From IMG/VR virus record IMGVR_UViG_3300044638_005617, positions 1 to 30,905 of that record: a stretch of DNA of 30,905 nucleotides. One strand, 5' to 3'. The DNA comes from a virus. The translations under genes and the position numbers were made by a program. Shown here in pieces: positions 7,728 through 29,331 of the stretch (positions are counted from its first letter, which is position 1; the number at the start of each line of letters is the position of its first letter). The notes below the pieces were generated by a model. It made no database searches, was not told the origin of the DNA, and saw only the letters and a list, made by a program, of their open reading frames with translations.

Positions 7728-10700
7728 ATGGCAACATATTCAGATATTTTTATAGATCAGGGGAGCACATTTTCATCTGTTATAGATGTGCCAGATACAA
7801 ACGGATTGCCGTTTAATTTGTCTAGCTATACAGCTCGTGGACAAATACGCAAAACATATACATCAAAAAATGTAGTTACTTTTACAACATCTATCGACCT
7901 TCCACTTGAAGGAAAGGTTAATATTTCATTAACTGCAGGGCAAACACGAGCCATGAAAGCTGGTCGTTATCTGTATGATATTGAGATATTTAATAGCACT
8001 GGTCATATATTTAGAATTCGCGAAGGACAGGTAGAAATTTCTCCAGGAATATCTGAAGATAACGGGGGTATAGAATTAATACCAGATCCACCAACAATAT
8101 ATGAAATTATTGATGAACGAATAGACGCTCGTACTATAGTAACTGATAAATTATTGACATTGTCAGCGTTTGAAGAAACAAATTTTTATGCTAATAGCAA
8201 ATTAAATCAAAATTTAGCTTTAAAAGCACCTTTAGATTCTCCAGTATTTACTGGAATTCCAATTGCCCCAACTGCTAGCTTTAATACAAATAATCAACAG
8301 ATAGCAACTACGCAATTTGTTCGTACTGCGATTAATAATCTAATAGACGGCGCACCTAATGTGTTAGATACATTAAATGAATTGGCTGATGCGATTGGAA
8401 ATGATGCAAATTTTTCTACGACAATTATAAATGGTCTTTCAGGAAAAGCACCGTTAAATTCTCCAAGTTTCACTGGAACGGTAAGTGGTATCACAAAGGC
8501 AATGGTCGGTCTTGGAGATGTAGACAATACAAGTGACTTAGACAAACCCGTTTCAACCGCAACTCAAACAGCGTTGAACGCTAAGGTTGATAAAGTAAGC
8601 GGTCAAGGGCTGTCTGACGAAAACTACACACTAATTGAAAAAAATAAACTAGCTGGAATACAAAATGGAGCAACATCAAATTCTACTGATGCGTATCTAC
8701 TCAGTCGCGCAAATCATACTGGCAGTCAATCATACACAACTATAACAGGATTAGGAACACTTGCGACTCAAAGCGGAACCTTTAGTGGCTCTTCAAGTGG
8801 TACAAATACTGGTGATCAGACTATTACTCTGGGTGGAGATGCTACTGGTAGTGGGACAGCACTGTTAAATGTGACATTGGCTTCAACAGGGGTATTTGCT
8901 GGCGAATATAACAGCAGCGCAACAAGTGTTACACCATTTACGGTTGACATTAAAGGACGCATTACTGCAGTTGATACTCCAATCACTATTACTCCAAGTT
9001 GGAATTCAGTAACAGACAAACCAACTACAGTATCTGGTTATAGCATCACTGATGCGGTAGATTTGACTAGTGCACAAACTATATCAGGTGTTAAAGATTT
9101 TACAAGCAGTCCCACAGTTCCGCTTATACCAACTGCATCTGGACACGCTGCATCAAAAGCATATGTTGACACCCTTTCTGAAGGTCTACACGTACACGCT
9201 GCCGTGCATGCGCTGCTTAAGACTCCACTTGCAACCACAATTGGTGGTGGAGTTACTATAACCTATAGTAATGGCACAAATGGAGTAGGAGCAAAATTAA
9301 CGGCGTCTGCACCAGTGACATGGACAACCGTTTTTAATGACTCTGACATTGCAAATGACAGTCGAGTAATAATTGCAGGCCAAAGCACGAGTGCACATAA
9401 TGGTATATATGTTGTAAGTTCTAGTACAGAATTAATTCGTGCAGATGATTTTAATACACCAACTGAAATGGCAGGAGGTGATTTTGTTTTTGTCACTCAT
9501 GGAACATACGCCGACACTGGTTGGGTGCTTTCTGAGCCAGTGACTGAGGTTGGGGCAACTGCAGTAATATTCACACAATTTTCTGGTGCAGGTGCCTATG
9601 AAGCTGGAGCAGGACTCTCTCGCGATGGCACAACATTTTCAGTTGTAGCAGGCACAGGTATTGCAGTTGATGGAAGTGTAAGTTTGTCAACAGTAGGCTC
9701 TCCTGGCACATATCGATCAGTGACTGTTGACTCTTATGGTCGAATCACGTCTGGAACCAATCCAACTACGCTGTCTGGTTATGGAATTACAGATGCCGCG
9801 ACTTCAACTAATTTAAGCAATCATATCAGCGATGCTACAGTTCACCTAACAAGCACACAAAACACGTTGCTTGATGGCATCACTGTGACATCTGAAAAGG
9901 TTAACTATCTGTCTGACGTCACATCAAATATTCAGGGTCAATTAAATGTTAAACAACCGCTTGACTCTGACCTAACAGCAATTGCAGCATTGACTGGGAC
10001 TAGTGGACTCCTAAGAAAAACTGGGACTGACACCTGGACTCTTGATACAAACATAGATACAATAACGACCAGCACTGCTACAAACCTTACTGGTTTTATT
10101 TCTGGCAATGGAACCAACATTAGTGGCGCGACAACTGCTAGTTCAAGCGGAGGATCTGGCACATTAGTTATACGTGACACTGATGGGTCATTTAGCACAA
10201 CCTCATCTAATTCGGATGCATCTATTATTGGGGTTAATACAGGAAACGGAGGTGGTTTATCTGGACTTTCTCAGAGTGGAGCAGGTGGTGTATCTATAAC
10301 TATTGATGGAAATTATCACCATAAATTTGGAATTTTTAGTTCTGAATCAGGAGCGCCAGCAAGAGCTGCAATAGAAAGACTGCGTGGTTGGTTTGTATGG
10401 TTCCGTAGTGTAGGTGAAACATTTTTTACTGGTCGCCTAAAGACTGCTGATATTACGGCTAACCGTGAGTGGACCCTACCAAACGCATCAGGAACCCTGA
10501 CTCTTGATTCCCATACCCACTCTGATGCAACTACAAGTGTCTCTGGATTTTTATCAGCAAATGATAAAATTAAACTTGATGGCATTGCATCAGGCGCAGA
10601 GGTAAATGTTAACCCTGATTGGAATGCTACAGGTGGTGATGCCCAAATTTTAAACAAACCAACAACACTTTCAGGTTATGGCATTACTGATGCCGCGACT

Positions 10701-13436
10701 TCAACTGCACTAAGCAATCATATTAGCGATGCTACAGTTCATCTAACAAGTACGCAAAACACATTGCTTGATGGCATCACAGTGACATCTGAAAAGGTTA
10801 ACTATCTGTCTGACGTCACATCAAATATACAGAGTCAACTGAATAACAAAGCTAACCTCGAAAGTCCAAATTTCTCTGGAACAGTAGGTGGTATCACAAA
10901 GAGTATGGTTGGACTGGGCAATGTAGACAATACGAGTGACCTCAATAAACCAATATCTACTGCAACTGCGACTGCATTAAACAATAGAGTTGATTTAAGT
11001 GAATCACAAACTATAACTGGAACAAAAACAATAAATGCTCCAATAACGGTTAATAATAAATTCGTTACTATTCGTGGAACACCAACAGAATCACAATATG
11101 GGTTAAATATTATAAATAATGGCAACTTTGACCCAGGCACTCCATTGGTAGTTGATGGTAGAGCGCGGGTTGTTCATGGTATGACATTTGCCGCAGGTAT
11201 ACCAAACTTTACAAATGGCAGTGATCATACTCACGTTCAGTGGACAACGCAAAATCGTCAAAGTTGGCAAATGATTCAAAATGGCGGAGCAAGTAATACT
11301 AATGCAAATACTTTTACGTTGACTACTGTAATGACTACTGCGTCTTTACAATTTTTTAATGAGTCAAATATACACAGCATCGACACACGAGAAGTTGTGG
11401 TGACAAACAATGTATTTCCATTTCTTGCGACTGGTTTAAAAATAAATTATAACGCTAATGCAACTGGATTAAATGTTGGTGATTTTATTCAAATAACTAT
11501 GAATCCAGCTCCTCCTGGTGTAGTAGCAAATACCTACAACGGGATCGTCACTGCTGGTCCTACAACAGTAACGATCGATGGGGAATCTAAAATTCAATAT
11601 ACCTTTTCGTTAGAAGGATTTAATAGCGTAAATTGGACTCCAAGTTTAGCAAGTTTTTCAACTACATTTGTTAATCCAGTAAGTGGTTTTAATAATATTA
11701 GAGTTTCATTTGCACCAACAGAATTAACCGGAACACGAGTGTCATTGACTGGAGCATGGTCTGGTATAGGCAGATATGTTAAAGTTGAAATGACAGGACA
11801 TAATGCATTTGAGGGACTACCATTAGTATTTACTGTTGCTGGAAGCACTAAAATTGGATTAGTAGTTGGAAGTTATAATGCATTTGTTAAAAAAGTCATT
11901 GATGCCAATACGTTTATAATTTCTGTTGGAAATGCTATTAGCGGGTTTAATACTACTAGTGGAACTTATGCGGGAGCCACTGGTTGGACATTATATAGAG
12001 GATCTACTGATGCAATTCACCAATATACTCCATCAACATCACATTTTATTTTCCATCGTTTTCCAACTTCTAATACGACCCCTACAACAACTGGTGGTAG
12101 TAAAGCAATATCTTTAGGAAATTGCGCAGAAGTTGAAGGAAACTTTTCATATTCTTTTGGTCATAAGGCAGGAGTGTTTGCTGATCATTCTATGGCACTT
12201 GGCGGAGAAGATAGTTTTATTAATGCTAATTATAGCACTACAGTTGGAGGTCAAGGACTTGTTTCATCTGGTGTATATCAAACAATTATTGGCAAATATA
12301 ATACGATTGATACATCAAACACAAAACCATTTATTGTTGGTTGGGGATCGAGCGACTCTAGTCGATCGAACCTTTTAGAGTTATCAAATACGACTCTTAC
12401 GCTAAACACTGCAATAAATGCAAGTGGTTCAGCAACTGCTTCATCATTCATAAGATCTGGCGGCACAAGTGCACAATTTTTAAAGGCTGATGGAACTACA
12501 CAACAATTAATTACTGGCAAGACGCTCTATGTAGATGCAGTTACTGGAACAGATATACGCGGACCAAATAGTGATTATAGTCTTTCATCTCCATTCGCAA
12601 CTATAGGCGAAGCGGTGGCTGCTTCTGAAGATGGTGATCTTGTTTATGTTCGCGCTGGATCTTATACAATATCTTCACCAATTTCATTAAACGGCAAGGG
12701 TAATATATATTTTGAAACAGCGGCATCAATTACAATTGCTGGCAATACAGTTGCGTTTTCTCTTACTGCAAATGAAACTAAAACGGTTAATGGATTTGCT
12801 CAATTCGCGTTAAGTAATACAGCAGGCATACTAACACAATCAAATGGAGTTTTAGTTTTAGAATATCAGAGTATTATGAGCGCCTCAACAGACACTCTAT
12901 TTAGAGTATCTGGAGGCTCATTAAGTACAAGTTTTGCGGGTATTGTAGCACCTACAACAGACGGATTTGTGTTGACCGGAAATGGAACACTGGTAATTCG
13001 CCGTTCCCACACCGCGTCATGCAAACAATTTTTAAACTGCAATACTAGTGGAGCTGTTACTATGGACATATGGACTGTCGTAGGAGCTTCCTCAGATGCG
13101 ACTATTCGCATTGTTAATCATGATGGATTTTCGTATCGTGGAGTCAACTTAAACAACAACTCATCTAGTCCATGCATTGTTTTTGCATACACCGGTGGAA
13201 CTAATGCTCCAGTCTTACGAAACTTAAGATTAACAACAAGCGGAACTGGTATTTCTATTGATACCGCTACTGCAACAAGAAATATATTCTTAGATCAAAT
13301 TAAAATAAATGCCACCAACAGTCTATCAGCTACCGCACCTACAACTGTTTATTCTACCACAACATACAGCACTGTCGCGCCTGATGCTAACGTAACAGTT
13401 GATGGTCAATATAATATAATGTCTAACCTTTTCTAA
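7728..13436 (+). CDS. Giant modular tail-fibre / adhesin protein
   Basis: This 1902-residue protein is low in cysteine and rich in Ser, Thr, Gly and Asn, as expected for a trimeric fibre. Residues 1-110 form a beta-rich N-terminal domain (RYLYDIEIF, FRIREGQVEI), probably for virion attachment. From about 165 there are phage-fibre repeats of the type PLxSPxFTG, and SGITKAMVGLGDVDNTSD recurs near 1050. Residues 480-640 match a widespread fibre module (GIYVVSSS, GGDFVFV, GWVLSEP, AGAGLSRDG). A module with SGYGITDA...HISDATVHLTSTQ occurs twice. Residues 1455-1525 show YadA-head-like beta-roll repeats (YSFGHKAGV, HSMALGG, STTVGGQG). From about 1590, a right-handed beta-helix begins (TLYVDAVTGTD, DLVYVRAGSYTI). 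It should bind the host surface. No chaperone or intramolecular autoprotease domain was recognised. Confidence 0.85.
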   Translation: MATYSDIFIDQGSTFSSVIDVPDTNGLPFNLSSYTARGQIRKTYTSKNVVTFTTSIDLPLEGKVNISLTAGQTRAMKAGRYLYDIEIFNSTGHIFRIREGQVEISPGISEDNGGIELIPDPPTIYEIIDERIDARTIVTDKLLTLSAFEETNFYANSKLNQNLALKAPLDSPVFTGIPIAPTASFNTNNQQIATTQFVRTAINNLIDGAPNVLDTLNELADAIGNDANFSTTIINGLSGKAPLNSPSFTGTVSGITKAMVGLGDVDNTSDLDKPVSTATQTALNAKVDKVSGQGLSDENYTLIEKNKLAGIQNGATSNSTDAYLLSRANHTGSQSYTTITGLGTLATQSGTFSGSSSGTNTGDQTITLGGDATGSGTALLNVTLASTGVFAGEYNSSATSVTPFTVDIKGRITAVDTPITITPSWNSVTDKPTTVSGYSITDAVDLTSAQTISGVKDFTSSPTVPLIPTASGHAASKAYVDTLSEGLHVHAAVHALLKTPLATTIGGGVTITYSNGTNGVGAKLTASAPVTWTTVFNDSDIANDSRVIIAGQSTSAHNGIYVVSSSTELIRADDFNTPTEMAGGDFVFVTHGTYADTGWVLSEPVTEVGATAVIFTQFSGAGAYEAGAGLSRDGTTFSVVAGTGIAVDGSVSLSTVGSPGTYRSVTVDSYGRITSGTNPTTLSGYGITDAATSTNLSNHISDATVHLTSTQNTLLDGITVTSEKVNYLSDVTSNIQGQLNVKQPLDSDLTAIAALTGTSGLLRKTGTDTWTLDTNIDTITTSTATNLTGFISGNGTNISGATTASSSGGSGTLVIRDTDGSFSTTSSNSDASIIGVNTGNGGGLSGLSQSGAGGVSITIDGNYHHKFGIFSSESGAPARAAIERLRGWFVWFRSVGETFFTGRLKTADITANREWTLPNASGTLTLDSHTHSDATTSVSGFLSANDKIKLDGIASGAEVNVNPDWNATGGDAQILNKPTTLSGYGITDAATSTALSNHISDATVHLTSTQNTLLDGITVTSEKVNYLSDVTSNIQSQLNNKANLESPNFSGTVGGITKSMVGLGNVDNTSDLNKPISTATATALNNRVDLSESQTITGTKTINAPITVNNKFVTIRGTPTESQYGLNIINNGNFDPGTPLVVDGRARVVHGMTFAAGIPNFTNGSDHTHVQWTTQNRQSWQMIQNGGASNTNANTFTLTTVMTTASLQFFNESNIHSIDTREVVVTNNVFPFLATGLKINYNANATGLNVGDFIQITMNPAPPGVVANTYNGIVTAGPTTVTIDGESKIQYTFSLEGFNSVNWTPSLASFSTTFVNPVSGFNNIRVSFAPTELTGTRVSLTGAWSGIGRYVKVEMTGHNAFEGLPLVFTVAGSTKIGLVVGSYNAFVKKVIDANTFIISVGNAISGFNTTSGTYAGATGWTLYRGSTDAIHQYTPSTSHFIFHRFPTSNTTPTTTGGSKAISLGNCAEVEGNFSYSFGHKAGVFADHSMALGGEDSFINANYSTTVGGQGLVSSGVYQTIIGKYNTIDTSNTKPFIVGWGSSDSSRSNLLELSNTTLTLNTAINASGSATASSFIRSGGTSAQFLKADGTTQQLITGKTLYVDAVTGTDIRGPNSDYSLSSPFATIGEAVAASEDGDLVYVRAGSYTISSPISLNGKGNIYFETAASITIAGNTVAFSLTANETKTVNGFAQFALSNTAGILTQSNGVLVLEYQSIMSASTDTLFRVSGGSLSTSFAGIVAPTTDGFVLTGNGTLVIRRSHTASCKQFLNCNTSGAVTMDIWTVVGASSDATIRIVNHDGFSYRGVNLNNNSSSPCIVFAYTGGTNAPVLRNLRLTTSGTGISIDTATATRNIFLDQIKINATNSLSATAPTTVYSTTTYSTVAPDANVTVDGQYNIMSNLF
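9774..9947 (+). repeat. Intragenic repeat copy 1 in the fibre gene
   Basis: This 174-base unit recurs at 10671-10844 with only scattered, mostly third-position differences. It encodes SGYGITDA ... ISDATVHLT ... VTSEKVNYLSDV, a fibre module of 58 residues. The close match at DNA level implies recent duplication or gene conversion. Confidence 0.9.
10671..10844 (+). repeat. Intragenic repeat copy 2 in the fibre gene
   Basis: This is the second copy of the 174-base unit at 9774-9947. In copy 1 it precedes an unrelated segment; here it is followed by the AMVGLG-type module also seen near 8460-8580. The fibre was therefore assembled by shuffling modules. Copies in direct orientation can recombine to delete or swap the 0.9 kb between them. 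Confidence 0.9.
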
Positions 13437-13440
13437 AACT

Positions 13441-13818
13441 ATGGCAACAGGACCACTAACAATAAATAACAATACAACGATAACTGGTGACTTAACAGTT
13501 TCTGGAACTATTATTACAACATTTGATTCGACTATAACTGGAAGTGGTAAAACTTTTACTAATACTGATTCTGGTAAAACATTTCAGGTCTCTGGAACAA
13601 ATACATTAGTTCTTCCTACCTATGCATCAGCAAAAACTGGATGGTCTATTGGTATTGTAAATGTAGGAGGAAACACTCTTACTGTTAATATTGCTGGAGG
13701 ATCTGGAAATACAATTAATGATGTTACAACATTTAACAATACAGTAAAATATTCTTCAGTTAATATCTATAAATCTGATATATCTGGTAAATTTATTGCA
13801 ATAGGTGTCTTGTATTAG
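13441..13818 (+). CDS. Small fibre-like structural protein
   Basis: This 125-residue protein begins with TINNNTTITGDLTVSGTI, a repeat style common at the start of phage fibre and baseplate-spike accessory proteins, and continues with beta-rich, Ser/Thr/Gly/Asn-rich sequence. It has no cysteines and no charged catalytic pattern. It starts four bases after the giant fibre stop and ends just before the trypsin-like gene, so all three are probably co-transcribed from the promoter at 7714. A role as a short fibre, cap or adaptor on the large fibre is likely; the exact family is not recognised. Confidence 0.65.
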   Translation: MATGPLTINNNTTITGDLTVSGTIITTFDSTITGSGKTFTNTDSGKTFQVSGTNTLVLPTYASAKTGWSIGIVNVGGNTLTVNIAGGSGNTINDVTTFNNTVKYSSVNIYKSDISGKFIAIGVLY

Positions 13819-13820
13819 TC

Positions 13821-15365
13821 ATGAATATACGAAATATTAATCTTGCAGCAGCATCGAGCAATATTATTAATCCTGCATTTGGCGCGATGCGTTCTAAGAC
13901 CGATGCAGAAATGCTTTCTATGTTAGGAACAAAGCCAGGCGGTGCAGCTAACATGGAATTATGGTCTGCTAGAAACTCAACAGCTAATCCTCCAACATAC
14001 ACTCGAAACCCAAATTTATGGTGTAATGAACTTGTGTCTCAACTTACTGCTGCCGTAGCTTATAAAGATGATGTAACTGGTGGTAAACAAAGCTATGGCG
14101 GCATATTAATAAGCCCACGACACGTTCTTTATTGTGAACACTCAAAGCCTCATGCAAGAAACACATGGTTCGTAAATTATAATAGTACTAAAGAATGTAA
14201 CTTACACTTTGTTCTTGCAAATGGTAGTGTAGTAGAAGCAGTTCAAATTGCGCAAACTACAGTTAGGCCTACTCGCGATAGGCCTGGAGCATACACCCCG
14301 ACTGACTATCCGACTGATACCATTTACAGTCAAACATTCGCTGGTGGTACTAATCCAATTGTTGGCACAACTTCAACTGTTGGTGGGATAGTTCAACACC
14401 CAGAAAGATTCAACGGTCTCAATAGCACTTGGACTGGAGCCAACATCATTAATTTAGATGGGAATAGCACTAGCAATTCTGGTGCCATTTCCTTGCCATT
14501 CACTCCGCAGAGTGGCTATATCTATGATCTCACAGCGAACATAAACGTGACTGCTGGCAATAATTCTTGGTTTGGAGTGGGATTTCTTGAGGACAACAGT
14601 GCCTATGGGTTTTATGCAAATAAACCTGCAGCACTTCGTAGAAGCACTGGCTGGGAGATCTATCCACAAAATACTGCGGTTTCAGTGACGAGTAATGAGG
14701 TGACTGTTCGATTGGATACCTCTATACCACAGTGGAGGATATCTATATTTCAAGGAGGTGTTCAAATTGGCAGCACCTATACCTATACGACGAATCCCAA
14801 AATCAACTATGTTGGGTTTGTATCCGAAGGGACAGCAGTGGCTAGCGTCAGCGTTTTCAAGTTGACAGTTACGACATCTGCCCAAGATTTGTGTGTAGCA
14901 GTACTTGATAGAGACGTTCAGGCGCTTGGTGTACATGTTATGCCAATACCAAAATTAACATTGCAAGACTTGGGTTACATCTCAACTCCTGCTATCTCGC
15001 ATATTCATGTCACACAAGGATACGAAAGAACTACTTCTTCAATCCCACCAACACCACGTTCTGATTATCCACAATATCATAATTCAATGGTTGCAGTAGG
15101 ACACGGCAGCATGTCGATGCCACCATTAAATTCGACATTAACAACTATTGATTATGCAGTATGGGACGGAGACAGTGGCACGCCGTCAATGATGCTATTA
15201 AACGGAAAATTATATTTACACAGACTTATAGGAGCATCAAATATTCCCAATAACATTGGTCATATTAACGCAATGATTGCAGTCGCTGAAGACGATGCTA
15301 TATCTCGTGGAAGGTTAGCAGCACGTACTGGAATAACAGTTCCACTAGTGCCGGTTGTAATTTAA
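13821..15365 (+). CDS. Trypsin-like serine-protease-fold structural protein with an inserted lectin-like domain
   Basis: The 514-residue protein shows the chymotrypsin/trypsin layout. SYGGILISPRHVLYCEHS (91-108) resembles the 'GGxLISPRxVLTAAHC' strand and gives catalytic H107. DLCVAVLDRDV (from D356) resembles the 'DIALL' strand with the catalytic aspartate. WDGDSGTP (448-455) is the GDSGGP motif with S452. LYLHRLIG follows where trypsins have 'LvGivS'. The His-to-Asp distance is about 249 residues instead of about 45, because residues 155-353 hold a beta-sandwich-like insert (YIYDLTANINV, GVGFLED, WRISIF, YVGFVSEG) resembling LamG/concanavalin-type lectin folds. The roughly 50 N-terminal residues resemble a virion-attachment or fibre-linking segment. 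It lies in the fibre operon. It could cut a host surface protein, process a fibre, or use the fold only for binding. Confidence 0.72.
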   Translation: MNIRNINLAAASSNIINPAFGAMRSKTDAEMLSMLGTKPGGAANMELWSARNSTANPPTYTRNPNLWCNELVSQLTAAVAYKDDVTGGKQSYGGILISPRHVLYCEHSKPHARNTWFVNYNSTKECNLHFVLANGSVVEAVQIAQTTVRPTRDRPGAYTPTDYPTDTIYSQTFAGGTNPIVGTTSTVGGIVQHPERFNGLNSTWTGANIINLDGNSTSNSGAISLPFTPQSGYIYDLTANINVTAGNNSWFGVGFLEDNSAYGFYANKPAALRRSTGWEIYPQNTAVSVTSNEVTVRLDTSIPQWRISIFQGGVQIGSTYTYTTNPKINYVGFVSEGTAVASVSVFKLTVTTSAQDLCVAVLDRDVQALGVHVMPIPKLTLQDLGYISTPAISHIHVTQGYERTTSSIPPTPRSDYPQYHNSMVAVGHGSMSMPPLNSTLTTIDYAVWDGDSGTPSMMLLNGKLYLHRLIGASNIPNNIGHINAMIAVAEDDAISRGRLAARTGITVPLVPVVI

Positions 15366-20485: not shown

Positions 20486-21232
20486 ATGGCAAAACCAGCA
20501 TCACGTCAAGAATTAGCAGACTATTGCCTTCGTGCACTCGGTGCTCCAGTACTTGAAATTAACATTGACGAAGATCAAATAGAAGATCGTATTGATGAAG
20601 CCATTCAGTTTTATCAAGAATATCATAGCGACGCGGTAGTTCGCACATTCATTAAACACCAAGTTACTGAAGCAGACTATACAAACAACTATATTACACT
20701 TCCAGATCAACTTATTAGTGTGCTTAGAGTCCTAAACCTAGCAACTGGCGATGCCGCTGATATGTTTAGTGTTAAGTATCAGTTGTTTTTAAATGACTTT
20801 TATGGTCTTCGTAATCCAGAGTCACTTGTAAACTATGAGATGACAAAGCAGTATATGAATGCTATTGAGCTTGTGCTTACTGGTAATTCGCAACAAATTA
20901 CGTTTACTCGTCATATGAATCGCTTGAGCATTCAAGACGACTGGAAAACACTCGTAAAGGTTGGTCAATACATCATTATTGAAGGCTATCAAACAATCGA
21001 TCCAAATACCTATACTGACGTCTATAATGACATGTTGCTTAAAAAGTATCTTACAGCATTGATGAAGCGTCAATGGGGAATCAACTTATTAAAATTCGAA
21101 GGCATGCAGCTGCCAGGTGGAGTGACTATAAATGGTCGTGCTATCTACGAAGACGCTCTCAATGATATTGAAAAGATTGAAACAGATTTTGATAGTAAAT
21201 ATCAAATGCCGCCGGACTTTTTCATGGGTTAA
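20486..21232 (+). CDS. gp13: Neck protein gp13
   Basis: The N-terminus MAKPASRQELADYCLRALG, followed by PVLEINIDEDQIEDRIDEAIQ and FYQEYH, is highly characteristic of T4-like gp13 of marine phages. The protein joins the portal end of filled heads, with gp14, so that the tail can attach. The length of 248 residues is shorter than T4's 309. The C-terminus (ALNDIEKIE ... PPDFFMG) is also typical of the marine form. It is the first gene of the 13-17 operon and has a late promoter only seven bases upstream. The position directly before gp14 agrees with T4 order. Confidence 0.92.
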   Translation: MAKPASRQELADYCLRALGAPVLEINIDEDQIEDRIDEAIQFYQEYHSDAVVRTFIKHQVTEADYTNNYITLPDQLISVLRVLNLATGDAADMFSVKYQLFLNDFYGLRNPESLVNYEMTKQYMNAIELVLTGNSQQITFTRHMNRLSIQDDWKTLVKVGQYIIIEGYQTIDPNTYTDVYNDMLLKKYLTALMKRQWGINLLKFEGMQLPGGVTINGRAIYEDALNDIEKIETDFDSKYQMPPDFFMG

Positions 21233-21251
21233 ATCAACATAGTTTATTATT

Positions 21252-22178
21252 ATGCCTCGCAGTGTATATTTTAGTCAAACCTATAGATCTGAGCAAAATC
21301 TCCTTGAAGATTTGCTTATTGAGTCTATGCAAATTATGGGGCATGATGTCTATTATATACCTCGTAAGATTGTAAAGCATGACTTTATCTTAAATGAAGA
21401 TGTAATTTCTAGCTTTGATAAATCATTTTCACTTGAAATGTATGTTGAAAGTGTCGATGGCTTTGAAGGAGATGGTGATCTTATGACCAAGTTTGGTCTT
21501 GAAATACGAGACCAAATTACACTCGTATGCAGTCGTAAACGTTGGAATGCACTTATAGGACGTCATGGTTATACCTATGATAGTGTTCGCCCTCGCGAAG
21601 GAGACTTAATATACGTACCACTTACTGGTGGGCTATTTGAGATTAAATTTGTTGAAGACAAAAATCCGTTTTTCCAACTTGGAGGTAGTGGTCGTAGTAA
21701 AGGCAATAATCCAACATTTAAACTTGTTTGCGAATTGTTTGAATATAGTGGTCAAGAAATTGACACTGGTGTTGCCGCAATTGATAATATTCAAGTTGCA
21801 CATAGTCAAAGTTATCGTTCATATGTCGAATTTGATGATGAACTACACACTCTTGGAGAAACGTTAACAATAACACTTCCATCCGGAGTCACAGGTGAAA
21901 CAGAAGCACTTCGATATACACGCACAGATGATGGCATAATACTCAGTGTCGGCACATTAACATTTGATGATGGCGAGTTTCATTCACTAACAGTTGGCAC
22001 AACATTTACCGGTCAAACTTCTGGCACAACTTCAACAATAACTTCACTAATTGGATTAATGTCAGGCGATGAAGAGTTATTTGAAAACGATGCACTAACT
22101 CAAAACAGTTCATTTGATATACAAGGGAATAATTTTATTGACTTTAGTGAAAGCAACCCATTTGGAGACCCTATCTAA
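21252..22178 (+). CDS. gp14: Neck protein gp14
   Basis: This is the partner of gp13 in the head-tail connector. The N-terminal half (YFSQTYRSEQNLLEDLLIESMQ is the region at 7-28; then YYIPRK, DVISSF, EIRDQITLVCSRKRW, PREGDLIYVPL, LFEIKFVED) is the conserved gp14 pattern. At 308 residues it exceeds T4 gp14 (256). The extra part, about residues 195-265, is a Thr/Gly-rich beta segment (TLPSGVTGE, FTGQTSGTTSTI) that looks like an inserted domain. It follows gp13 by 19 bases without its own late promoter. Confidence 0.9.
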   Translation: MPRSVYFSQTYRSEQNLLEDLLIESMQIMGHDVYYIPRKIVKHDFILNEDVISSFDKSFSLEMYVESVDGFEGDGDLMTKFGLEIRDQITLVCSRKRWNALIGRHGYTYDSVRPREGDLIYVPLTGGLFEIKFVEDKNPFFQLGGSGRSKGNNPTFKLVCELFEYSGQEIDTGVAAIDNIQVAHSQSYRSYVEFDDELHTLGETLTITLPSGVTGETEALRYTRTDDGIILSVGTLTFDDGEFHSLTVGTTFTGQTSGTTSTITSLIGLMSGDEELFENDALTQNSSFDIQGNNFIDFSESNPFGDPI

Positions 22179-22183
22179 TCGTT

Positions 22184-22996
22184 ATGTTAAGCAACTCATA
22201 TTATTATAATGCAAATCTTAAAAAGGTTGTGGCTGTGTTTGGCACACTTTTTAATAATATTTCTATTGCAAAAAAGGTTAATGGCAAGATGACTGGTGTG
22301 CAGCGTGTGCCAATTTCATACGGACCTCGGCAAAAGTTTTTAACCCGGCTTGCAAATCAAAACAATGAAGCAAATGGTGACGTTGCAATACAATTGCCTC
22401 GTATGAGTTTTGAAATTACTTCAATTTCATATGACACTACAAGCAAATTAAATCGTCTTAATAGTACGTTGTATCCAATTACTGGTACAGAAAATAGTAA
22501 AACGAAAATATATCAGGCTACTCCTTATCGTATAGGCATGCAATTGAATATATTTGCTCATCATCAAGATGACGCGCTTCAAATTTTTGAACAGATTGTT
22601 CCGTACTTTACACCAGAATATAGCGTTGCGATAAAAGATCTTGAAGGTCCTGGATCAGTTACCGATGTTCCTTTTATACTAACTGGCACTACCCTTCAAG
22701 ATGACTATGAAGGAGACTTTCAAAACAGTCGTCGTACTATAATTTACACACTCGATTTTGACATCAAATTTAAGTTTATTGGTGTGCAAGGCGGACTGGC
22801 TAAAATTATTAAACTTGTTGATGTTGATCTGTATGACACACCAATAACATCAAAAAATATTTCTATTGATGGAGTTCTTCCAGCTAACGGTGTTCTTCCA
22901 ATTGATGGAGTTAGAACAGAACTCGGTGATCCAGAAAATGATACTCCAGAAGACTATACTGTAATTACTACATATGGTTTTAGTGATGATCCTTGA
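22184..22996 (+). CDS. gp15: Tail sheath stabiliser and completion protein gp15
   Basis: In T4, gp15 forms the hexameric terminator on the finished tail and contacts the neck. Here YYYNANLKKVVAVFGTLFNNI, VPISYGPRQKFLTRL, ISYDTTSKLNRL and FAHHQDDALQIFEQIVPYF are the characteristic gp15 blocks, and the length (270 residues) equals that of T4 (272). It starts five bases after gp14. The last 40 residues contain a short duplicated phrase, DGVLPANGVLPIDGVR, absent from the core fold. Confidence 0.92.
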   Translation: MLSNSYYYNANLKKVVAVFGTLFNNISIAKKVNGKMTGVQRVPISYGPRQKFLTRLANQNNEANGDVAIQLPRMSFEITSISYDTTSKLNRLNSTLYPITGTENSKTKIYQATPYRIGMQLNIFAHHQDDALQIFEQIVPYFTPEYSVAIKDLEGPGSVTDVPFILTGTTLQDDYEGDFQNSRRTIIYTLDFDIKFKFIGVQGGLAKIIKLVDVDLYDTPITSKNISIDGVLPANGVLPIDGVRTELGDPENDTPEDYTVITTYGFSDDP

Positions 22997-22998
22997 CT

Positions 22999-23451
22999 AT
23001 GAAAAAAGACAAAAATACAATATTGGCATCATTAGAAAAAAATATTGTGCCAGTACAGCATGAGGTTGCGCTTTCATCCGGGGCTCCAGTTGGTCCATCG
23101 AATGATGAGATAATACTTGATGCTGAAGAGGATTATAAGTTTGCTCGTGAACGCATAAAAAAACTTATTGACACAAGTGATGAGGCAATAAGTACGATGC
23201 ATGCCCTTGCTTCTGATGCTGAGCATCCTCGTGCGTTTGAAGTACTTGCCGGAATGATAAAGACTGCTGCAGACATAAATGGTCAACTACTATCTTTGCA
23301 AAAAGAACGTAAAAAGATTGTTCAAGAAGTGGTTCCAAAGGGCAAAGAGTCCTCAAGTGGATCTACTACAAACAATGCAATTTTTGTTGGAACCACGACT
23401 GAACTTCAAAAGTTATTAAAAGGCTCACATGATGAAACACTTGATGTATAA
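22999..23451 (+). CDS. gp16: Terminase small subunit gp16
   Basis: The protein has 150 residues, close to T4 gp16 (164), with the expected charged, coiled-coil-forming centre (YKFARERIKKLIDT, AFEVLAGMIKTAADINGQLLSLQKERKKI) and a flexible tail. gp16 rings recognise DNA for packaging and regulate gp17. The ATG at 22999 is used; an in-frame TTG at 22993 would overlap gp15 but is a poor start. The gene sits between gp15 and gp17 exactly as in T4, and its TAA shares a base with the gp17 ATG (TAATG), giving coupled translation of the two subunits. Confidence 0.9.
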   Translation: MKKDKNTILASLEKNIVPVQHEVALSSGAPVGPSNDEIILDAEEDYKFARERIKKLIDTSDEAISTMHALASDAEHPRAFEVLAGMIKTAADINGQLLSLQKERKKIVQEVVPKGKESSSGSTTNNAIFVGTTTELQKLLKGSHDETLDV

Positions 23452-25049
23452 TGACTACTCCAGACTCATATAACGGCAATCCATATATAAAGAGAGATGG
23501 AGTACAGCAGCATTTTACTGCTCATGAAATAAGCGAGTATAAAAAATGTATGGCAAGTGTCTCATATTTTGCCGAGCACTATGTAAAGGTAATTAATCTT
23601 GACCGCGGGCTTGTAAACTTTAAGTTGCGTGGCTATCAAGAGCAGATGGTAGAACATTTTTCTGATAACCGGTTTTGTATTGTATTAGCATGTCGTCAAA
23701 GTGGTAAGTCTGTGACTAGCGTTGCATGGCTATTGCACTATGCGATATTTCATGCAGATAAAAAGATTGGAATTTTGGCAAATAAGGGAGCTACGGCTCG
23801 AGAGATGCTGTCTCGAATAACATTGATGCTAGAAAATTTACCATTTTTCTTACAACCAGGGTGTAAAATCCTAAATAAAGGAAACATAAAATTTAGTAAC
23901 AACTCTGAAATTATTGCTGCGGCTACAAGCGGATCGAGTATTCGCGGTCTAAGTATGAATGTTATTTTTCTTGATGAGTTTGCATTTGTGCATAATGCAA
24001 ATGAATTTTATACAAGTACCTATCCAGTTATTTCATCCGGTAAGGACACAAAGGTTATAATTACAAGCACGCCTAATGGAATAGGCAATATGTTTTATAA
24101 ACTGTGGGAAGGTGCAATACAAGGAGCGAATGAATTTAAACCGTTTACAATTAAGTGGAATGATGTGCCTGGACGCGACGAAGAATGGAAACGTCAGACC
24201 ATAGCAAATAGCAGTGAACTTCAATTTCGTCAAGAATTTGAAGTCAACTTTATTGGCAGCTCGCAAACATTGATTAACTCTGAGGTGTTGTTGGGTCTAC
24301 AGGCTAGGACTCCGTTAAAGACTCAATATGGTATTCAGTATTATGTTGAACCCGTTGAAGGGCATGACTATATTATAACTGTAGACGTCAGTAAAGGACG
24401 AGGACAAGATTACAGTACATTTACAGTATTTGATATAACTGGAGAAGGTCAGTCATTTGTTCAAGTTTGCACTTATCGAGATAATTTGATATCTCCGCTT
24501 ATGTTTCCAGAGTTGATAGTTCGTGCTGCAAAAATATATAATGGAGCTCTTGTAATCATTGAAAATAATGACGCTGGTCAGGTAGTGTGTAATTCAGTAT
24601 ATCATGACTACGAATATGACAATACCTTCGTTCAAAGTTCTGTAAAGAGCAGCGGTATCGGAGTTACTATGACAAAACGTGTAAAACGAATTGGATGCAG
24701 CAACCTTAAAGATCTTATAGAAGGTGGAAAATTGCAGATATACGATGCAGATGCGATAAGTGAACTTAGTAGCTTTGAGCCAAAGGGAGAAAGCTATTCT
24801 GCACGTGGCAATACTCATGATGATATGGTCATGAATCTCGTACTTTTTGCATGGTTTGTAAGTACTGATGCATTCGGAGGCATGAGCGCTATAGAGCTAA
24901 AAGACCTCTTGTATAGTGAAAAACTAAAAGAGATGGAAGAAGATGCCTTGCCATTTCCAATATTGACGAATAATAACGCATCTGAAAATAGCAGCGTTCG
25001 ACACTATGAAACGCAACTACGTGATCTTCAAGAGTGGAATATGCTGTAA
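23451..25049 (+). CDS. gp17: Terminase large subunit gp17 (packaging ATPase/nuclease)
   Basis: The ATPase domain has the Walker A CRQSGKS (residues 81-87), Walker B VIFLDEF (D175, E176) and the coupling motif TSTPNG (205-210). The C-terminal RNase-H-fold nuclease has candidate catalytic acids D312 (TVDVSKGRGQDYS), E371 (IIENND) and D457/D458 (THDDMV). gp17 powers DNA translocation into the prohead and cuts the concatemer. At 532 residues it is shorter than T4 (610), mostly at the ends. It is complete, with no sign of an intron or frameshift. Confidence 0.97.
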   Translation: MTTPDSYNGNPYIKRDGVQQHFTAHEISEYKKCMASVSYFAEHYVKVINLDRGLVNFKLRGYQEQMVEHFSDNRFCIVLACRQSGKSVTSVAWLLHYAIFHADKKIGILANKGATAREMLSRITLMLENLPFFLQPGCKILNKGNIKFSNNSEIIAAATSGSSIRGLSMNVIFLDEFAFVHNANEFYTSTYPVISSGKDTKVIITSTPNGIGNMFYKLWEGAIQGANEFKPFTIKWNDVPGRDEEWKRQTIANSSELQFRQEFEVNFIGSSQTLINSEVLLGLQARTPLKTQYGIQYYVEPVEGHDYIITVDVSKGRGQDYSTFTVFDITGEGQSFVQVCTYRDNLISPLMFPELIVRAAKIYNGALVIIENNDAGQVVCNSVYHDYEYDNTFVQSSVKSSGIGVTMTKRVKRIGCSNLKDLIEGGKLQIYDADAISELSSFEPKGESYSARGNTHDDMVMNLVLFAWFVSTDAFGGMSAIELKDLLYSEKLKEMEEDALPFPILTNNNASENSSVRHYETQLRDLQEWNML

Positions 25050-25060
25050 AAGTAGCTTTT

Positions 25061-25068
25061 TATAAATA
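25061..25068 (+). promoter_or_regulatory. T4-type late promoter for the sheath gene
   Basis: An exact TATAAATA stands 12 bases after the gp17 stop and 73 bases before the gp18 ATG. This long leader contains a purine-rich GAAGAAAGG at 25121-25129, a ribosome-binding site about 12 bases from the ATG. It fits strong translation of an abundant structural protein. Confidence 0.78.
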
Positions 25069-25141
25069 CGTTTAGATTGAAATTTTCTTATTATGCAACA
25101 ACTTATAATTAAACACAACTGAAGAAAGGTAAAATAAATAT

Positions 25142-26944
25142 ATGGCATATTTACAAAGCGTAGGGGTGCAAGTCACTGAAACAGACTTGACACCAGTAAC
25201 ACAGCCAACATCAGCCTCTATTGGCTTGTTTGTTGGTCACTTTAATTGGGGTCCAGCTGCTAATATAGTAAATGTTGACTCAGAAACCACATTAGGAAGA
25301 ATATTTGGTGCTCCAAAGAAAACAGCAGATATCAATGCTCCGTCATTCTTAACAGCAGAAAGTTTCCTTAAATACGGAAATTCTTTAAAGGTAGTTAGAG
25401 CAGTAGACGTCGATACAGCGAGAAATTCAAAGGCAATATTTACCTCTGATGTATCAGACTATTCTTCTAGCGAAACTAATCTAACAATTTACACACACGA
25501 AGGTGATTTCGAATTGCGTTCAACTGATCCATCATATGATAATGACGGTGGTTTCTATGCTCGTTATCCTGGAGTTCTTGGCAATTCATTGGCTATTAGC
25601 GTATTTCATGCCGACAATGCTTCCGATGTAGATAACGTAGATGAAATTAGAACCAAATTTACATATTCTCCTACTAATACTATTTGGAATGAACAGCAAG
25701 GAGATAATGGAATACCATTATACGAAAATGACGAAATTCATATTGCAGTATATGATAAAAATGGATTATTTACTGGAGTAAAAGGTACAATTCTTGAACT
25801 ATGGGAAGGTTTATCTTTAAGTAGTGAAGCTCGTACTACAGCAAATGTTTCAAACTATTTTGCAGATATAATTAATCGCAGTTCTGCATATATCTATGCT
25901 GTAAATGAAACCGAAATTTTTAACTTTAATGCAGACACTTTTTCGCTTAAAAAACCATTAGCATCAACACAAACTAAAGATCTAGGTAAATATTCATTTA
26001 TATTGGGCAGTGACGGTTCAACAAATGCGTCTGATCGTATTTCTGATATTGTCAACGTATTGGATCCTAGTGTTAATAGTCCTGTACAATTAAGTGATGT
26101 CGACAATATTGATTTTAACTTGGTATTTGCAGAGGCAGTAGAAGGAGACGCTGATGCACTAGTTAATGTGGCAATATCTGATTTAGTAAATGAACGTAAA
26201 GATTGTATTGGATTCCTATCTGCTCCATTATCTCTTTGGAGAAATTCTAGTGACGATCTCAAAAAGGATGCGTTATTACTTTATAAGGATCAAATTTCAA
26301 ATCCAACTAGCTACGTAGTATTTGATAGTTCACCTGTTTATGTATATAATAAATATGCAGACCGTTTTGAATGGATTCCTACATGTGGTCACATGGCTGG
26401 TCTTTGTGCATATACTGATGAAGTAAATGATCCATGGTTTTCACCAGCTGGTTTAAACAGAGGTCAACTTCGTGGTATCACCAAGATTGCTTATAATCCA
26501 AAACAGATTGATCGTGATGAGTTGTATAACAATAATATCAACCCTATCGTAAACATGCCAGGAAGCGGCATTGTGTTATGGGGAGATAAGACTGGACAAA
26601 AGAAAACATCTGCATTCGATCGCATTAATGTTCGTCGTTTATTTATTGTTCTTCAACGTACATGTAGAGAAGCCGCTAAGTTCCAATTATTTGAACTTAA
26701 CGATGAATTTACACGCAACGCGTTTATTAATATAGTTGAACCGTACTTACGTGATGTTAAAGGTCGTCGTGGTATTACAGAATTTAAAATTGTATGTAAT
26801 GAGAAAAATAATACTCCACAAGTTATTGATAGTAATCAATTTGTGGCTGATATCTACATCAAACCAGCTCGTTCGATTAACTATATAACTCTAAACTTTA
26901 TTGCAACTCGTACTGGTGTTTCATTTACTGAAATTGGAGCATAA
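25142..26944 (+). CDS. gp18: Tail sheath protein gp18
   Basis: This is the contractile sheath subunit. The N-terminus SVGVQVTETDLTPVTQPT followed by SIGLFVGHFNWGPA is the typical sheath start. The C-terminal third, with NPKQIDRDELYNNNINPIV, SAFDRINVRRLF, AFININVEP-like (AFINIVEPYL) and FIATRTGVSF, carries the conserved handshake region. The length is 600 residues against 659 in T4; the middle protruding domain is the variable part. It has its own promoter with a long leader and a good ribosome-binding site, consistent with high copy number (138 in T4). Confidence 0.95.
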   Translation: MAYLQSVGVQVTETDLTPVTQPTSASIGLFVGHFNWGPAANIVNVDSETTLGRIFGAPKKTADINAPSFLTAESFLKYGNSLKVVRAVDVDTARNSKAIFTSDVSDYSSSETNLTIYTHEGDFELRSTDPSYDNDGGFYARYPGVLGNSLAISVFHADNASDVDNVDEIRTKFTYSPTNTIWNEQQGDNGIPLYENDEIHIAVYDKNGLFTGVKGTILELWEGLSLSSEARTTANVSNYFADIINRSSAYIYAVNETEIFNFNADTFSLKKPLASTQTKDLGKYSFILGSDGSTNASDRISDIVNVLDPSVNSPVQLSDVDNIDFNLVFAEAVEGDADALVNVAISDLVNERKDCIGFLSAPLSLWRNSSDDLKKDALLLYKDQISNPTSYVVFDSSPVYVYNKYADRFEWIPTCGHMAGLCAYTDEVNDPWFSPAGLNRGQLRGITKIAYNPKQIDRDELYNNNINPIVNMPGSGIVLWGDKTGQKKTSAFDRINVRRLFIVLQRTCREAAKFQLFELNDEFTRNAFINIVEPYLRDVKGRRGITEFKIVCNEKNNTPQVIDSNQFVADIYIKPARSINYITLNFIATRTGVSFTEIGA

Positions 26945-26951
26945 TAATTCA

Positions 26952-26959
26952 TATAAATA
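26952..26959 (+). promoter_or_regulatory. T4-type late promoter for the tube gene
   Basis: The sequence TATAAATACTA matches the T4 late consensus extension (TATAAATACTATT) in its first 11 positions. It is 20 bases before the gp19 ATG. Confidence 0.78.
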
Positions 26960-26979
26960 CTAATACATAGAAAAATACA

Positions 26980-27525
26980 ATGAGTAATTTAACAAACTTT
27001 AAAAGTAATTTTAGTGGTGGTGGTGCTCGCCCAAATTTATTTCAGGTGACTATCGACTTTCCAAGTGGTGTGTCAGATGGCGCAAATGCTGGTCGTCAGA
27101 CGAATTTCCTCGTAAAAGCTGCTAGTATACCAGCAAGTGTTCTTGGAACTATTGAAGTTCCATATCGTGGTCGTAAATTAAAGGTAGCTGGTGATCGTAC
27201 ATTCGAACCATGGACAATCACCGTAATTAATGATACTGATATGAAAATTCGTAAAGCATTTGAAGAATGGATGAATATAGTTAATCGTCATAGTTCAAAT
27301 ACAAGTAATTTACCACAGGGCGCATTATCATACTTCAAAAATGTTTCAGTTGACCAACTTGGAAGATCAAGTTTGACAAATTCATTAGCAAAATATACAT
27401 TCATCGATGCATATCCAACTAATATTAGTGCAATCGATCTCAACTATGAGACTAATGACACAGTAGAAGAATTTACTGTTGAATTAAATTATCAGTACTG
27501 GATAAGCGGTGCTGTTACGTCCTAA
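26980..27525 (+). CDS. gp19: Tail tube protein gp19
   Basis: This 181-residue protein is the inner tube subunit through which DNA passes. Recognisable parts are ARPNLFQVTIDFP, FLVKAASIPAS, the GTIEVPYRGRKLKVAGDR loop, FEPWTITVINDTD and the C-terminal FTVELNYQYW. It is slightly longer than T4 gp19 (163). It directly follows gp18 as in T4 and has its own late promoter. No RNA-binding or catalytic motifs are expected. Confidence 0.95.
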   Translation: MSNLTNFKSNFSGGGARPNLFQVTIDFPSGVSDGANAGRQTNFLVKAASIPASVLGTIEVPYRGRKLKVAGDRTFEPWTITVINDTDMKIRKAFEEWMNIVNRHSSNTSNLPQGALSYFKNVSVDQLGRSSLTNSLAKYTFIDAYPTNISAIDLNYETNDTVEEFTVELNYQYWISGAVTS

Positions 27526-27541
27526 TTGATATTATTTTTGA

Positions 27542-27549
27542 TATAAATA
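27542..27549 (+). promoter_or_regulatory. T4-type late promoter for the portal gene
   Basis: TATAAATACTAT matches the extended T4 consensus and is followed by the gp20 ATG only seven bases after the octamer. Confidence 0.78.
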
Positions 27550-27556
27550 CTATATT

Positions 27557-29110
27557 ATGAAGCTATTTGGCTATGAAATATCAAAGGTAGTTGATAAGAA
27601 GAATTCTTCGGAAACCTCAACAGTGCCGTCATTCTCAGCCCCGATTGAGAATGACGGCACCTCTATTTTAACTGCTAGCAACGCAGCTGGCTATTATGGA
27701 CAGATACTTGACATTGATGGTGCATCACTGACCAATGAGAAAGATATTATACTAAAATGTCGTAGTGCTGCTACTCAGCCAGAGTGTGATACCGCAATTT
27801 CAGATATCGTTAATGCAGCAGTCGTGTCTGATTCGGATGGTGTTCCAGTAAATCTAGTATTGGATAAACTAGATCAGCCAGACAGCATCAAGAAAAAAAT
27901 ACGTGAAGAGTTTAATGGTATCTTAAAGTTATTGTCATTCAACTATAATGGCTATGATATCTTTCGTCGTTGGTATATTGATGGTAAGTTGTATTATCAT
28001 CTAATGATTGATACTAAAAAGCCAAAAGAAGGCATCAAGGAAATTCGTTCTATTGATCCTCTTAAAATCAAAAAGATTAAAGAGATTACAAACAAGATTG
28101 ACAAAGTCACTGGTGTAAAAACTGCTGAGGTTACTAGTGAATATTTCTTGTATTCTGAAGACTTTTCTAATACCTCTGGAAGCGGTGGCATAAAAATTGA
28201 TCCAAATACAGTCGTCTATGTTCCTTCTGGAATACTTGATGAGAGTGGTAAGATTGCGATATCTTACTTACATAAGAGTGTAAAGCTCGTAAATCAACTT
28301 CGCATGATGGAAGACGCTCTTGTCATCTATCGTATCTCTCGTGCACCTGAACGTCGTATCTTTTATATCGATATTGGTAACTTGCCAAAAGGTAAAGCTG
28401 AGGAGTATGTTCAAGGCATCATGGCAAAATATCGTAACAAACTTATCTATGATGCAAATACTGGTGAGATTCGAGACGATCGTAAGAGCATGAGTATGCT
28501 CGAAGACTTTTGGTTGCCTCGTCGTGAAGGTGGTCGTGGAACAGAAATTACTACACTTCCAGGCGGTGACAATCTTAGTCAAATTGAAGACGTAATCTTT
28601 TTCCAAAAGAAACTCTATCGTTCATTAAACATCCCAGTCAATCGACTCGAAGGAGAGACTGCCTTTAATATGGGACGAGTCAGCGAGATATCACGAGAAG
28701 AGGTAAAATTCCAAAAGTTCATTAATCGTCTTCGTAAAAAGTTTTCAGTGCTCTTTATTGATATATTGCGCATGCAGTTACTCTTGAAAGGCATTATAAC
28801 TCCAGATGATTGGTCAGAGATTAAAGAAAACCTTTCTATTGACTATATTGAAGACAACTTCTTTAGTGAGTTAAAAGACTTTGAAATTATGAAAGAGCGT
28901 GTGTCGATGCTTGATACGGTTTCAAGTCATATCGGCAAATATTACAGCGAAAAATGGGTTCGTAGTAATATTCTCAATCAGTCTGATGATGAAATTGAAA
29001 AGATGGATGAAGAGATTACAGCGGAAAAACCAGCAAAAGAGTCAACAGATGCTGAAACGCCGCCTGAAGGTGAAGCGTCAGACGATCAGTTTGGCGAAGT
29101 TGAAATGTGA
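27557..29110 (+). CDS. gp20: Portal vertex protein gp20
   Basis: This protein forms the dodecameric DNA gate and nucleates prohead assembly. GYYGQILDIDG, RSAATQPECDTAISDIVNAAV, GYDIFRRWYIDGKLYYH, RISRAPERRIFYIDIGNLPKGKAE and NRLEGETAFNMGR are classical gp20 blocks, and the length (517) equals that of T4 (524). The C-terminus is acidic (EEITAEKPAKEST ... DDQFGEVEM), as in other T4-like portals. A perfect 15-bp inverted repeat lies in codons 23-35, with a 12-bp palindrome just before it. Confidence 0.96.
   Translation: MKLFGYEISKVVDKKNSSETSTVPSFSAPIENDGTSILTASNAAGYYGQILDIDGASLTNEKDIILKCRSAATQPECDTAISDIVNAAVVSDSDGVPVNLVLDKLDQPDSIKKKIREEFNGILKLLSFNYNGYDIFRRWYIDGKLYYHLMIDTKKPKEGIKEIRSIDPLKIKKIKEITNKIDKVTGVKTAEVTSEYFLYSEDFSNTSGSGGIKIDPNTVVYVPSGILDESGKIAISYLHKSVKLVNQLRMMEDALVIYRISRAPERRIFYIDIGNLPKGKAEEYVQGIMAKYRNKLIYDANTGEIRDDRKSMSMLEDFWLPRREGGRGTEITTLPGGDNLSQIEDVIFFQKKLYRSLNIPVNRLEGETAFNMGRVSEISREEVKFQKFINRLRKKFSVLFIDILRMQLLLKGIITPDDWSEIKENLSIDYIEDNFFSELKDFEIMKERVSMLDTVSSHIGKYYSEKWVRSNILNQSDDEIEKMDEEITAEKPAKESTDAETPPEGEASDDQFGEVEM
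27598..27609. repeat. 12-bp perfect palindrome in the 5' end of gp20
   Basis: GAAGAATTCTTC is self-complementary and centred on GAATTC. It lies 13 bases before the long inverted repeat at 27623, so the first 105 bases of gp20 have two symmetric elements. A single 12-bp palindrome can arise by chance in 31 kb. Confidence 0.5.
27623..27660. repeat. Perfect 15-bp inverted repeat with 8-base loop inside gp20
   Basis: The arms at 27623-27637 (GTGCCGTCATTCTCA) and 27646-27660 (TGAGAATGACGGCAC) are exact reverse complements around the loop GCCCCGAT. The element is GC-rich in an AT-rich gene and lies in frame, coding V23 to T35 of the portal protein. As RNA it would form a very stable hairpin about 66 bases after the ATG. 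Confidence 0.9.
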
Positions 29111-29115
29111 AAATA

Positions 29116-29123
29116 TATAAATA
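29116..29123 (+). promoter_or_regulatory. T4-type late promoter for the small core-protein gene
   Basis: An exact TATAAATA begins six bases after the gp20 stop and ends eight bases before the ATG at 29132. Confidence 0.75.
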
Positions 29124-29131
29124 GTTAAAGT

Positions 29132-29302
29132 ATGGAAAAAACAAAAGAATTTATTGATAGCATGATGTCTGGTGAAAAAACCACGTCTGATTCGCTATTT
29201 TCAGACTTGATACGTGACAAAGTACGTACAGTGCTAGAAATTAAAAAGGTAGAACTTTCCTCTAGCATCTATAACGATGCAGTAGAGCAAGTTAAAATAT
29301 AA
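29132..29302 (+). CDS. Small prohead core protein (gp67/gp68-like position)
   Basis: This 56-residue protein (starting MEKTKEFIDSMMSG, ending VEQVKI) fits exactly between the promoter at 29116 and that at 29308. In T4 the interval between genes 20 and 21 holds the small core proteins gp67 and gp68, and T4-like marine phages have one short gene here. The pattern FSDLIRDKVRTVLEIKKVELSSSIYND resembles the ending of such core proteins (a helix with an amphipathic KxxELxxSIY motif). It is predicted to be helical and mixed in charge. A role in the internal prohead core or as a gp21 substrate is inferred from position and pattern. Confidence 0.7.
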   Translation: MEKTKEFIDSMMSGEKTTSDSLFSDLIRDKVRTVLEIKKVELSSSIYNDAVEQVKI

Positions 29303-29307
29303 ATTTT

Positions 29308-29315
29308 TATAAATA
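29308..29315 (+). promoter_or_regulatory. T4-type late promoter for the gp21-gp22 pair
   Basis: An exact TATAAATA lies 16 bases before the gp21 ATG. No such element precedes gp22, so protease and scaffold are probably co-transcribed. Confidence 0.75.
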
Positions 29316-29331
29316 AATACATAACAGTCTA

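Follow-up and report, generated by a model that had tools for sequence, protein, structure and literature searches.

The gene at positions 13821..15365 (+ strand) of a T4-like phage sequence codes for a 514-aa protein that is predicted to be a clan PA, chymotrypsin-fold (S1-like) protease, and a whole domain related to bacterial surface proteins has been inserted into it just ahead of the catalytic Asp. The window analysed here is the entire 30,905-nt stretch of IMG/VR record IMGVR_UViG_3300044638_005617. The chymotrypsin fold is an ancient catalytic fold and a familiar one. Absent from the catalogues are this family of phage proteases and, in one member, the insertion at the active-site rim of a domain from bacterial surface proteins. 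We lean towards a reading in which the protein is an active protease displayed on the tail of a T4-like phage of Planctomycetota-Verrucomicrobiota (PVC) group bacteria, with the insert acting as a docking or gating module.

Genome context, catalytic triad and predicted fold

The ATG of the protease gene lies two bases past the stop of the preceding reading frame in the window ORF list, and the gene has orthologues in other contigs. Immediately upstream, across this 2-bp gap, is the gene of a 125-aa beta-rich protein (13441..13818, +), and the same gene pair is found at loci L002 and L005. The pair is preceded by the gene of a 1902-aa tail-fibre protein (7728..13436, +; PHROG tail fiber, best E 1.4e-33). 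The locus is further placed by a set of T4-like virion genes (20486..29976, +), whose PHROG matches are the head-tail adaptor, head closure, sheath stabiliser, terminase large subunit, tail sheath, tail tube, portal and head maturation protease. Judged by gene content, the window belongs to a T4-like phage and the protease gene to a virion operon behind the tail-fibre gene, in agreement with the fibre operon of the original prediction. We favour the view that the protein is borne on the virion. A 535-aa protein with six matches to FG-GAP (integrin-type propeller) repeats is also encoded within the virion gene set (18839-20446).

The predicted catalytic residues are H107 (codon 14139..14141, +; SPRHVLYCEHS), D356 (14886..14888, +; AQDLCVAVL, directly past the insert) and the nucleophile S452 (15174..15176, +; GDSGTP). 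Their positions and trypsin-like order, proposed earlier, were verified on the 514-aa translation. Independent alignment to the profile showed an unbroken triad across 45 distinct viral ORFs and 23 matches from bacteria. His and Asp are present in 45/45 and 23/23 of these sequences, and Ser in every alignment that extends that far; four alignments end before it. The only invariant columns of a 30-sequence alignment are G94, L96, P99, R100, H101, H107, D356, D451 and S452. This invariance is partly imposed by the search pattern, which holds the His motif; D356 and S452 lie outside the pattern, and H107 likewise is not imposed in the loci found by alignment searches or by the bacterial profile search. 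As in family S1 (1dlk, thrombin, factor Xa), GDSGxP surrounds the nucleophile and D-[LIV]-x-[VL] starts from the Asp. The residue six before S452 is Ala, at the position of Asp189 in trypsin, so Lys/Arg cleavage is not expected. The S1 enzymes have a Cys42-Cys58 bridge, whereas in the window protein the catalytic His is followed by Ser and Cys occurs only at positions 68, 105, 126 and 358. The lack of a Cys beside the His is in keeping with folding in the cytoplasm.

In an AlphaFold2 model computed from the 30-sequence alignment, residues 41-150 and 353-505 form a chymotrypsin double barrel with the His-Asp-Ser order of the S1 proteases. VIA-align, used as a second look at Foldseek's own candidates, superimposed residues 45-489 on chymotrypsin with a Z of 14.6 (180 aligned, 3.2 Å). 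This alignment covers all three triad positions, and structural identity to the S1 family is just 12-15%. The model supports the trypsin-like fold that had been proposed; of the outcomes named as refuting it, neither a fold lacking the double barrel nor a non-conserved triad was observed. The pLDDT is at least 90 for 146 residues; it is 85-96 across most of residues 21-150, above 90 around residues 361-380 and 451-510, some loops excepted, and below 50 for most of residues 150-352, the insert region. Three near-identical sequences gave a pLDDT of 28, and the 30-row alignment gave a modelled protease. The insert remained without depth because its bacterial relatives were misaligned alongside the full protein. 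A Foldseek search of the PDB gave no match below E 0.001. The best E-value was 0.018 and the weak matches were mostly S1 proteases; we attribute these weak values to the splitting of the domain by the poorly modelled insert. In the viral library, the single Foldseek match below E 0.001 was A0A6J7XEP5 (BFVD; E 5.4e-6), an uncharacterised protein of an uncultured Caudovirales phage. Finally, the profile of the 30 sequences matched factor Xa (E 2.7e-5); in this alignment the phage Asp falls on the catalytic Asp of DIAVLRL, and the phage GDSG on GDSGGP.

A foreign domain ahead of the catalytic Asp

The gene is divided into an N-terminal part (13821..14305, +; residues 1 to ~162) coding for an N-terminal helix and the first barrel with the catalytic His, the inserted domain (14306..14871, +; ~residues 163-353, junctions uncertain by ~8 bp), and a C-terminal part (14872..15365, +) coding for the second barrel and a C-terminal helix. 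Six IMG/VR contigs encode a protein that is 91-95% identical over 329 matched residues and lacks the insert. The window DNA is 96.6% identical to L001 up to 14305 and 96.2% identical from 14872, with no match in between. The site reads GATTGGCCAAGCGGAGCGGCACCT in the relatives, where ~21 bp have been replaced in the window by ~566 bp (~14306-14871), in frame. The insert ends two residues ahead of D356, at the site of the chymotrypsin 99-loop; no such domain precedes the Asp in the S1 family. The His-Ser spacing is 345 in the window protein and 114-170 in the viral relatives having both motifs. This short spacing and the insert-free relatives identify the window copy as the derived state. The original prediction spoke of an interrupted triad, which is literally true in evolutionary terms but not in functional ones, since frame and triad are kept.

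It had also been proposed from base composition that the insert was acquired later. The GC content of ~46% estimated for its core is borne out (45.4% for 14461-14700; 43.8% for the whole insert), but flanks of 35-40% are not. The flanks inside the gene are at 40.6 and 41.1%, and it is the neighbouring genes and spacers that are lower (33.2 and 32.2%). The GC3 of the insert is 39.0%, compared with 26% for the rest of the gene. None of 438 equal overlapping windows from the other coding sequence reaches this value (mean 22.9%, sd 5.5), and the insert therefore looks acquired. The six insert-free relatives agree with a later acquisition.

The lectin-like nature suggested for the insert drew no support from sequence matches or from the model, in which the pLDDT of the insert is mostly below 50. 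No Pfam or NCBIfam match was found for it, and its best PDB profile match, a mannose-specific lectin, is weak (E 0.14). A carbohydrate-binding role is possible. The domain resembles PEP-CTERM-anchored proteins. Its relatives were found with the degenerate pattern NPxINYVG, the single viral match of which is considered a chance match. They comprise three near-tandem genes of a Kiritimatiellota genome, together with copies in a Planctomycetales and a Sedimentisphaerales MAG. The insert is homologous to these secreted proteins of unassigned function (L044, L057 and L058) over the whole domain, with 28-36% identity and tblastn E-values of 1e-12 to 1e-16 against the fetched loci. The bacterial proteins from Kiritimatiellota and Planctomycetota begin with a signal peptide and in most cases end with a PEP-CTERM anchor, whereas the phage copy, lodged inside a protease, is the bare domain and carries neither. 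It begins where the mature bacterial domain begins, just past the signal peptide. A profile of the insert matched 12/241 genomes from the phylum of the Kiritimatiellota genome, 2/199 from that of the Planctomycetales genome, and 0/198 and 0/200 from the phyla to which a Flavobacteriaceae and a Thalassotalea genome belong. Having been built from PVC seed sequences, the profile is biased towards PVC matches, and these include the seed genomes G001 and G002 themselves. The three near-tandem PEP-CTERM genes with the insert-type domain span 2502-6133 of L044 and suggest a locally amplified surface-protein family.

The protease family in phages and bacteria

The window protein has no match in PHROG or NCBIfam. 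In Pfam it matches only DUF316 (PF03761, a nematode trypsin-6-like family), below the curated cutoff and over ~46 residues around the catalytic His (E 0.0016 to 0.0063); with DUF316 the sole Pfam match, no S74 domain was matched. The 30 family members gave no PHROG match, and their Pfam matches all stay at sub-threshold level. PF00089 matches three of these 30 (best E 0.0017) but not the window protein, even at E 0.01. No match to the window protein was found in isolate phage and plasmid collections, and the pattern WxGDSGTP refound the close family only. The wider viral family was collected with the degenerate pattern GGxLISPRHxLxxxH, followed by alignment searches. When distant members served as queries, one unannotated record, Caudoviricetes sp. 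MW202510, was matched among 50,697 phage records; a match in Vibrio phage Phriendly (E 8) was treated as chance. The original prediction held that trypsin-like folds are rare among phage virion proteins. This fits the isolate databases, but among environmental phages, and in prophage-like regions, the domain is found repeatedly.

The relatives sit among tail genes of unrelated phages, and fusions to adhesin-type domains are frequent. In L078 the protease gene is flanked by baseplate-wedge and terminase genes; it adjoins tail-fibre or tail-protein genes in L107 and L110, and a tape-measure gene in the bacterial genome of L162. N-terminal fusion partners include fn3 and DUF285 (L107) and PKD (L079); FG-GAP-like repeats (L136) and a dockerin-like stretch (L111) were read by eye. 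The FG-GAP-like stretch of L136 resembles the repeats encoded at 18839-20446 of the window. The dockerin-like stretch (L111, 5019-5250) runs GDADRDGDVDLTDL ... GDFDGDGDVDLADL and has no Pfam match at 0.001.

In the two PVC phyla, the protease profile matched 12/241 and 2/199 genomes at E <1e-20, and in the Flavobacteriaceae and Thalassotalea phyla 0/198 and 0/200. As both the insert and the protease profiles match in two PVC phyla and in neither control phylum, the host of the phage is probably a PVC group bacterium. We know of few cultured phages of this group. Inspected by eye, some of the bacterial protease loci are prophage-like and others have chromosomal PEP-CTERM genes as their neighbours; the family is therefore not restricted to tails. 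Viral and bacterial members are interleaved in the tree, many deep nodes of which are weakly supported, and this interleaving suggests exchange between the two groups. In two loci, the genes directly 3' of the insert-free protease were read by eye. L002 has an LRR-like protein (9001-11058), and L005 has a paralogue of the 125-aa protein and, after it, one that is FG-GAP-like (9215-10820). The differing genes have the look of an exchangeable cassette for tail-tip proteins.

Proposed role and alternative explanations

In the mechanism that we propose, the protease would be made within the tail-fibre/baseplate gene set of a T4-like phage. Displayed on the tail, it would cut a host surface protein and open the way to the receptor, or else allow passage through a protein or exopolysaccharide-protein coat. 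In this phage, a PEP-CTERM-type PVC domain stands in place of seven residues of the loop that leads to the catalytic Asp. In clan PA proteases this 99-loop borders subsites S2-S4, and an insert ending so close to D356 would be expected to project over the cleft on its non-primed side. From there it could dock the enzyme on the surface material bound by its bacterial relatives, or gate the entry of substrates to the cleft. In either case the inserted domain may give the enzyme a new target on the host surface.

Virion depolymerases acting on sugars are well known; to our knowledge, virion proteases directed against host surface protein have hardly been described. The literature searched yielded no description of trypsin-like tail or virion proteases. 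The virion peptidases of jumbo phages surveyed in PMC7824862 are prohead S77, zincins, NlpC/P60 and YHYH enzymes (the word "trypsin" is absent from its main text). As is predicted for the window protease, they are structural or tail-associated phage proteins, proposed for maturation or for breach of the host wall, but their folds are unrelated to it.

The C-terminal position of the protease domain in most fused relatives, the usual place of self-releasing fibre domains, could point to a maturation protease that cuts itself or neighbouring fibre proteins in assembly, in the manner of S74-type intramolecular chaperones, and is not aimed at the host. The small beta-rich protein gene preceding the protease in close relatives would suit this role as well. 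However, S74 domains use a Ser-Lys dyad and not a full His/Asp/Ser triad, and the N-terminal partners of the phage proteases are diverse and adhesin-like. Moreover, the domain also occurs in PVC bacterial proteins by PEP-CTERM genes, away from phage genes, and a surface-type insert by the active site would make little sense in a maturation enzyme. We consider this role unlikely. A protease fold retained as a receptor-binding module, with catalysis weak or lost and the insert as a new receptor-binding surface, seems to us distinctly improbable. Tail proteins are selected to swap binding domains and the insert adjoins an active-site loop. The dN/dS of the N-terminal flank is 0.37-0.39 (0.39 against L001; 0.07-0.39 over all flank comparisons), and substitutions surround the catalytic His (EHSKPHA in one and DHAHPFA in another of the window and its close relatives). 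Against such a scaffold, the triad and GDSG are intact in the window protein, the triad is intact in every fully aligned relative, and the C-terminal flank is under strong constraint (dN/dS of 0.07 in the comparison with L001). At the sequence level, selection has kept the protease, and most of the flank divergence may predate the insertion.

Some bacterial members have N-terminal hydrophobic segments, and a part of these lie beside PEP-CTERM genes, as might be expected of an effector freed at lysis, or by lysogens of related prophages, and targeting an exopolysaccharide-protein matrix or competitors. The phage protein, however, has no evident signal peptide by eye and its gene sits inside the fibre/virion gene set, and we give this possibility little credence. 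Finally, the insert-bearing copy was found in one contig only, and no close match to the insert was returned from other viral contigs or from GTDB, as would be the case had a bacterial fragment been joined into the phage contig by misassembly. A chimera would require two independent joins, both in frame and stop-free, at domain edges (the first at the mature-domain start of the relatives) and with ~21 bp lost at the site. On these grounds an assembly artefact is very unlikely indeed.

The tail-displayed protease that we prefer leads to a broader and doubtful, although possible, proposal. PVC phages might possess a large uncatalogued family of tail-displayed chymotrypsin-fold proteases that cut through a proteinaceous host surface and are retargeted by grafting host surface-protein domains on the active-site rim. 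If so, receptor switching would proceed by capture of a domain into a protease loop and not by fibre-tip exchange. A protease family widespread in PVC phages would suggest the nature of the entry barrier and give a lead for host assignment. The window protein accepted a whole foreign domain beside its catalytic Asp, and the insert-free and insert-bearing proteins, near-identical outside the insert, constitute a natural experiment on targeting.

The window also contains a cluster of sugar and small-molecule genes (884-7089 and 15629-16627). It includes a radical SAM protein, split transketolase halves, two epimerases, a PIG-L deacetylase, UDP-sugar dehydrogenase-like and polysaccharide deacetylase-like proteins, and a UDP-galactopyranose mutase adjoining the protease gene. 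The cluster could serve in fibre decoration or host glycan remodelling. It is followed by a tandem pair of paralogous genes (16624-17980), the first of which has no Pfam match; their products share the start MKIAFCIRGHIR and are possibly glycosyltransferases.
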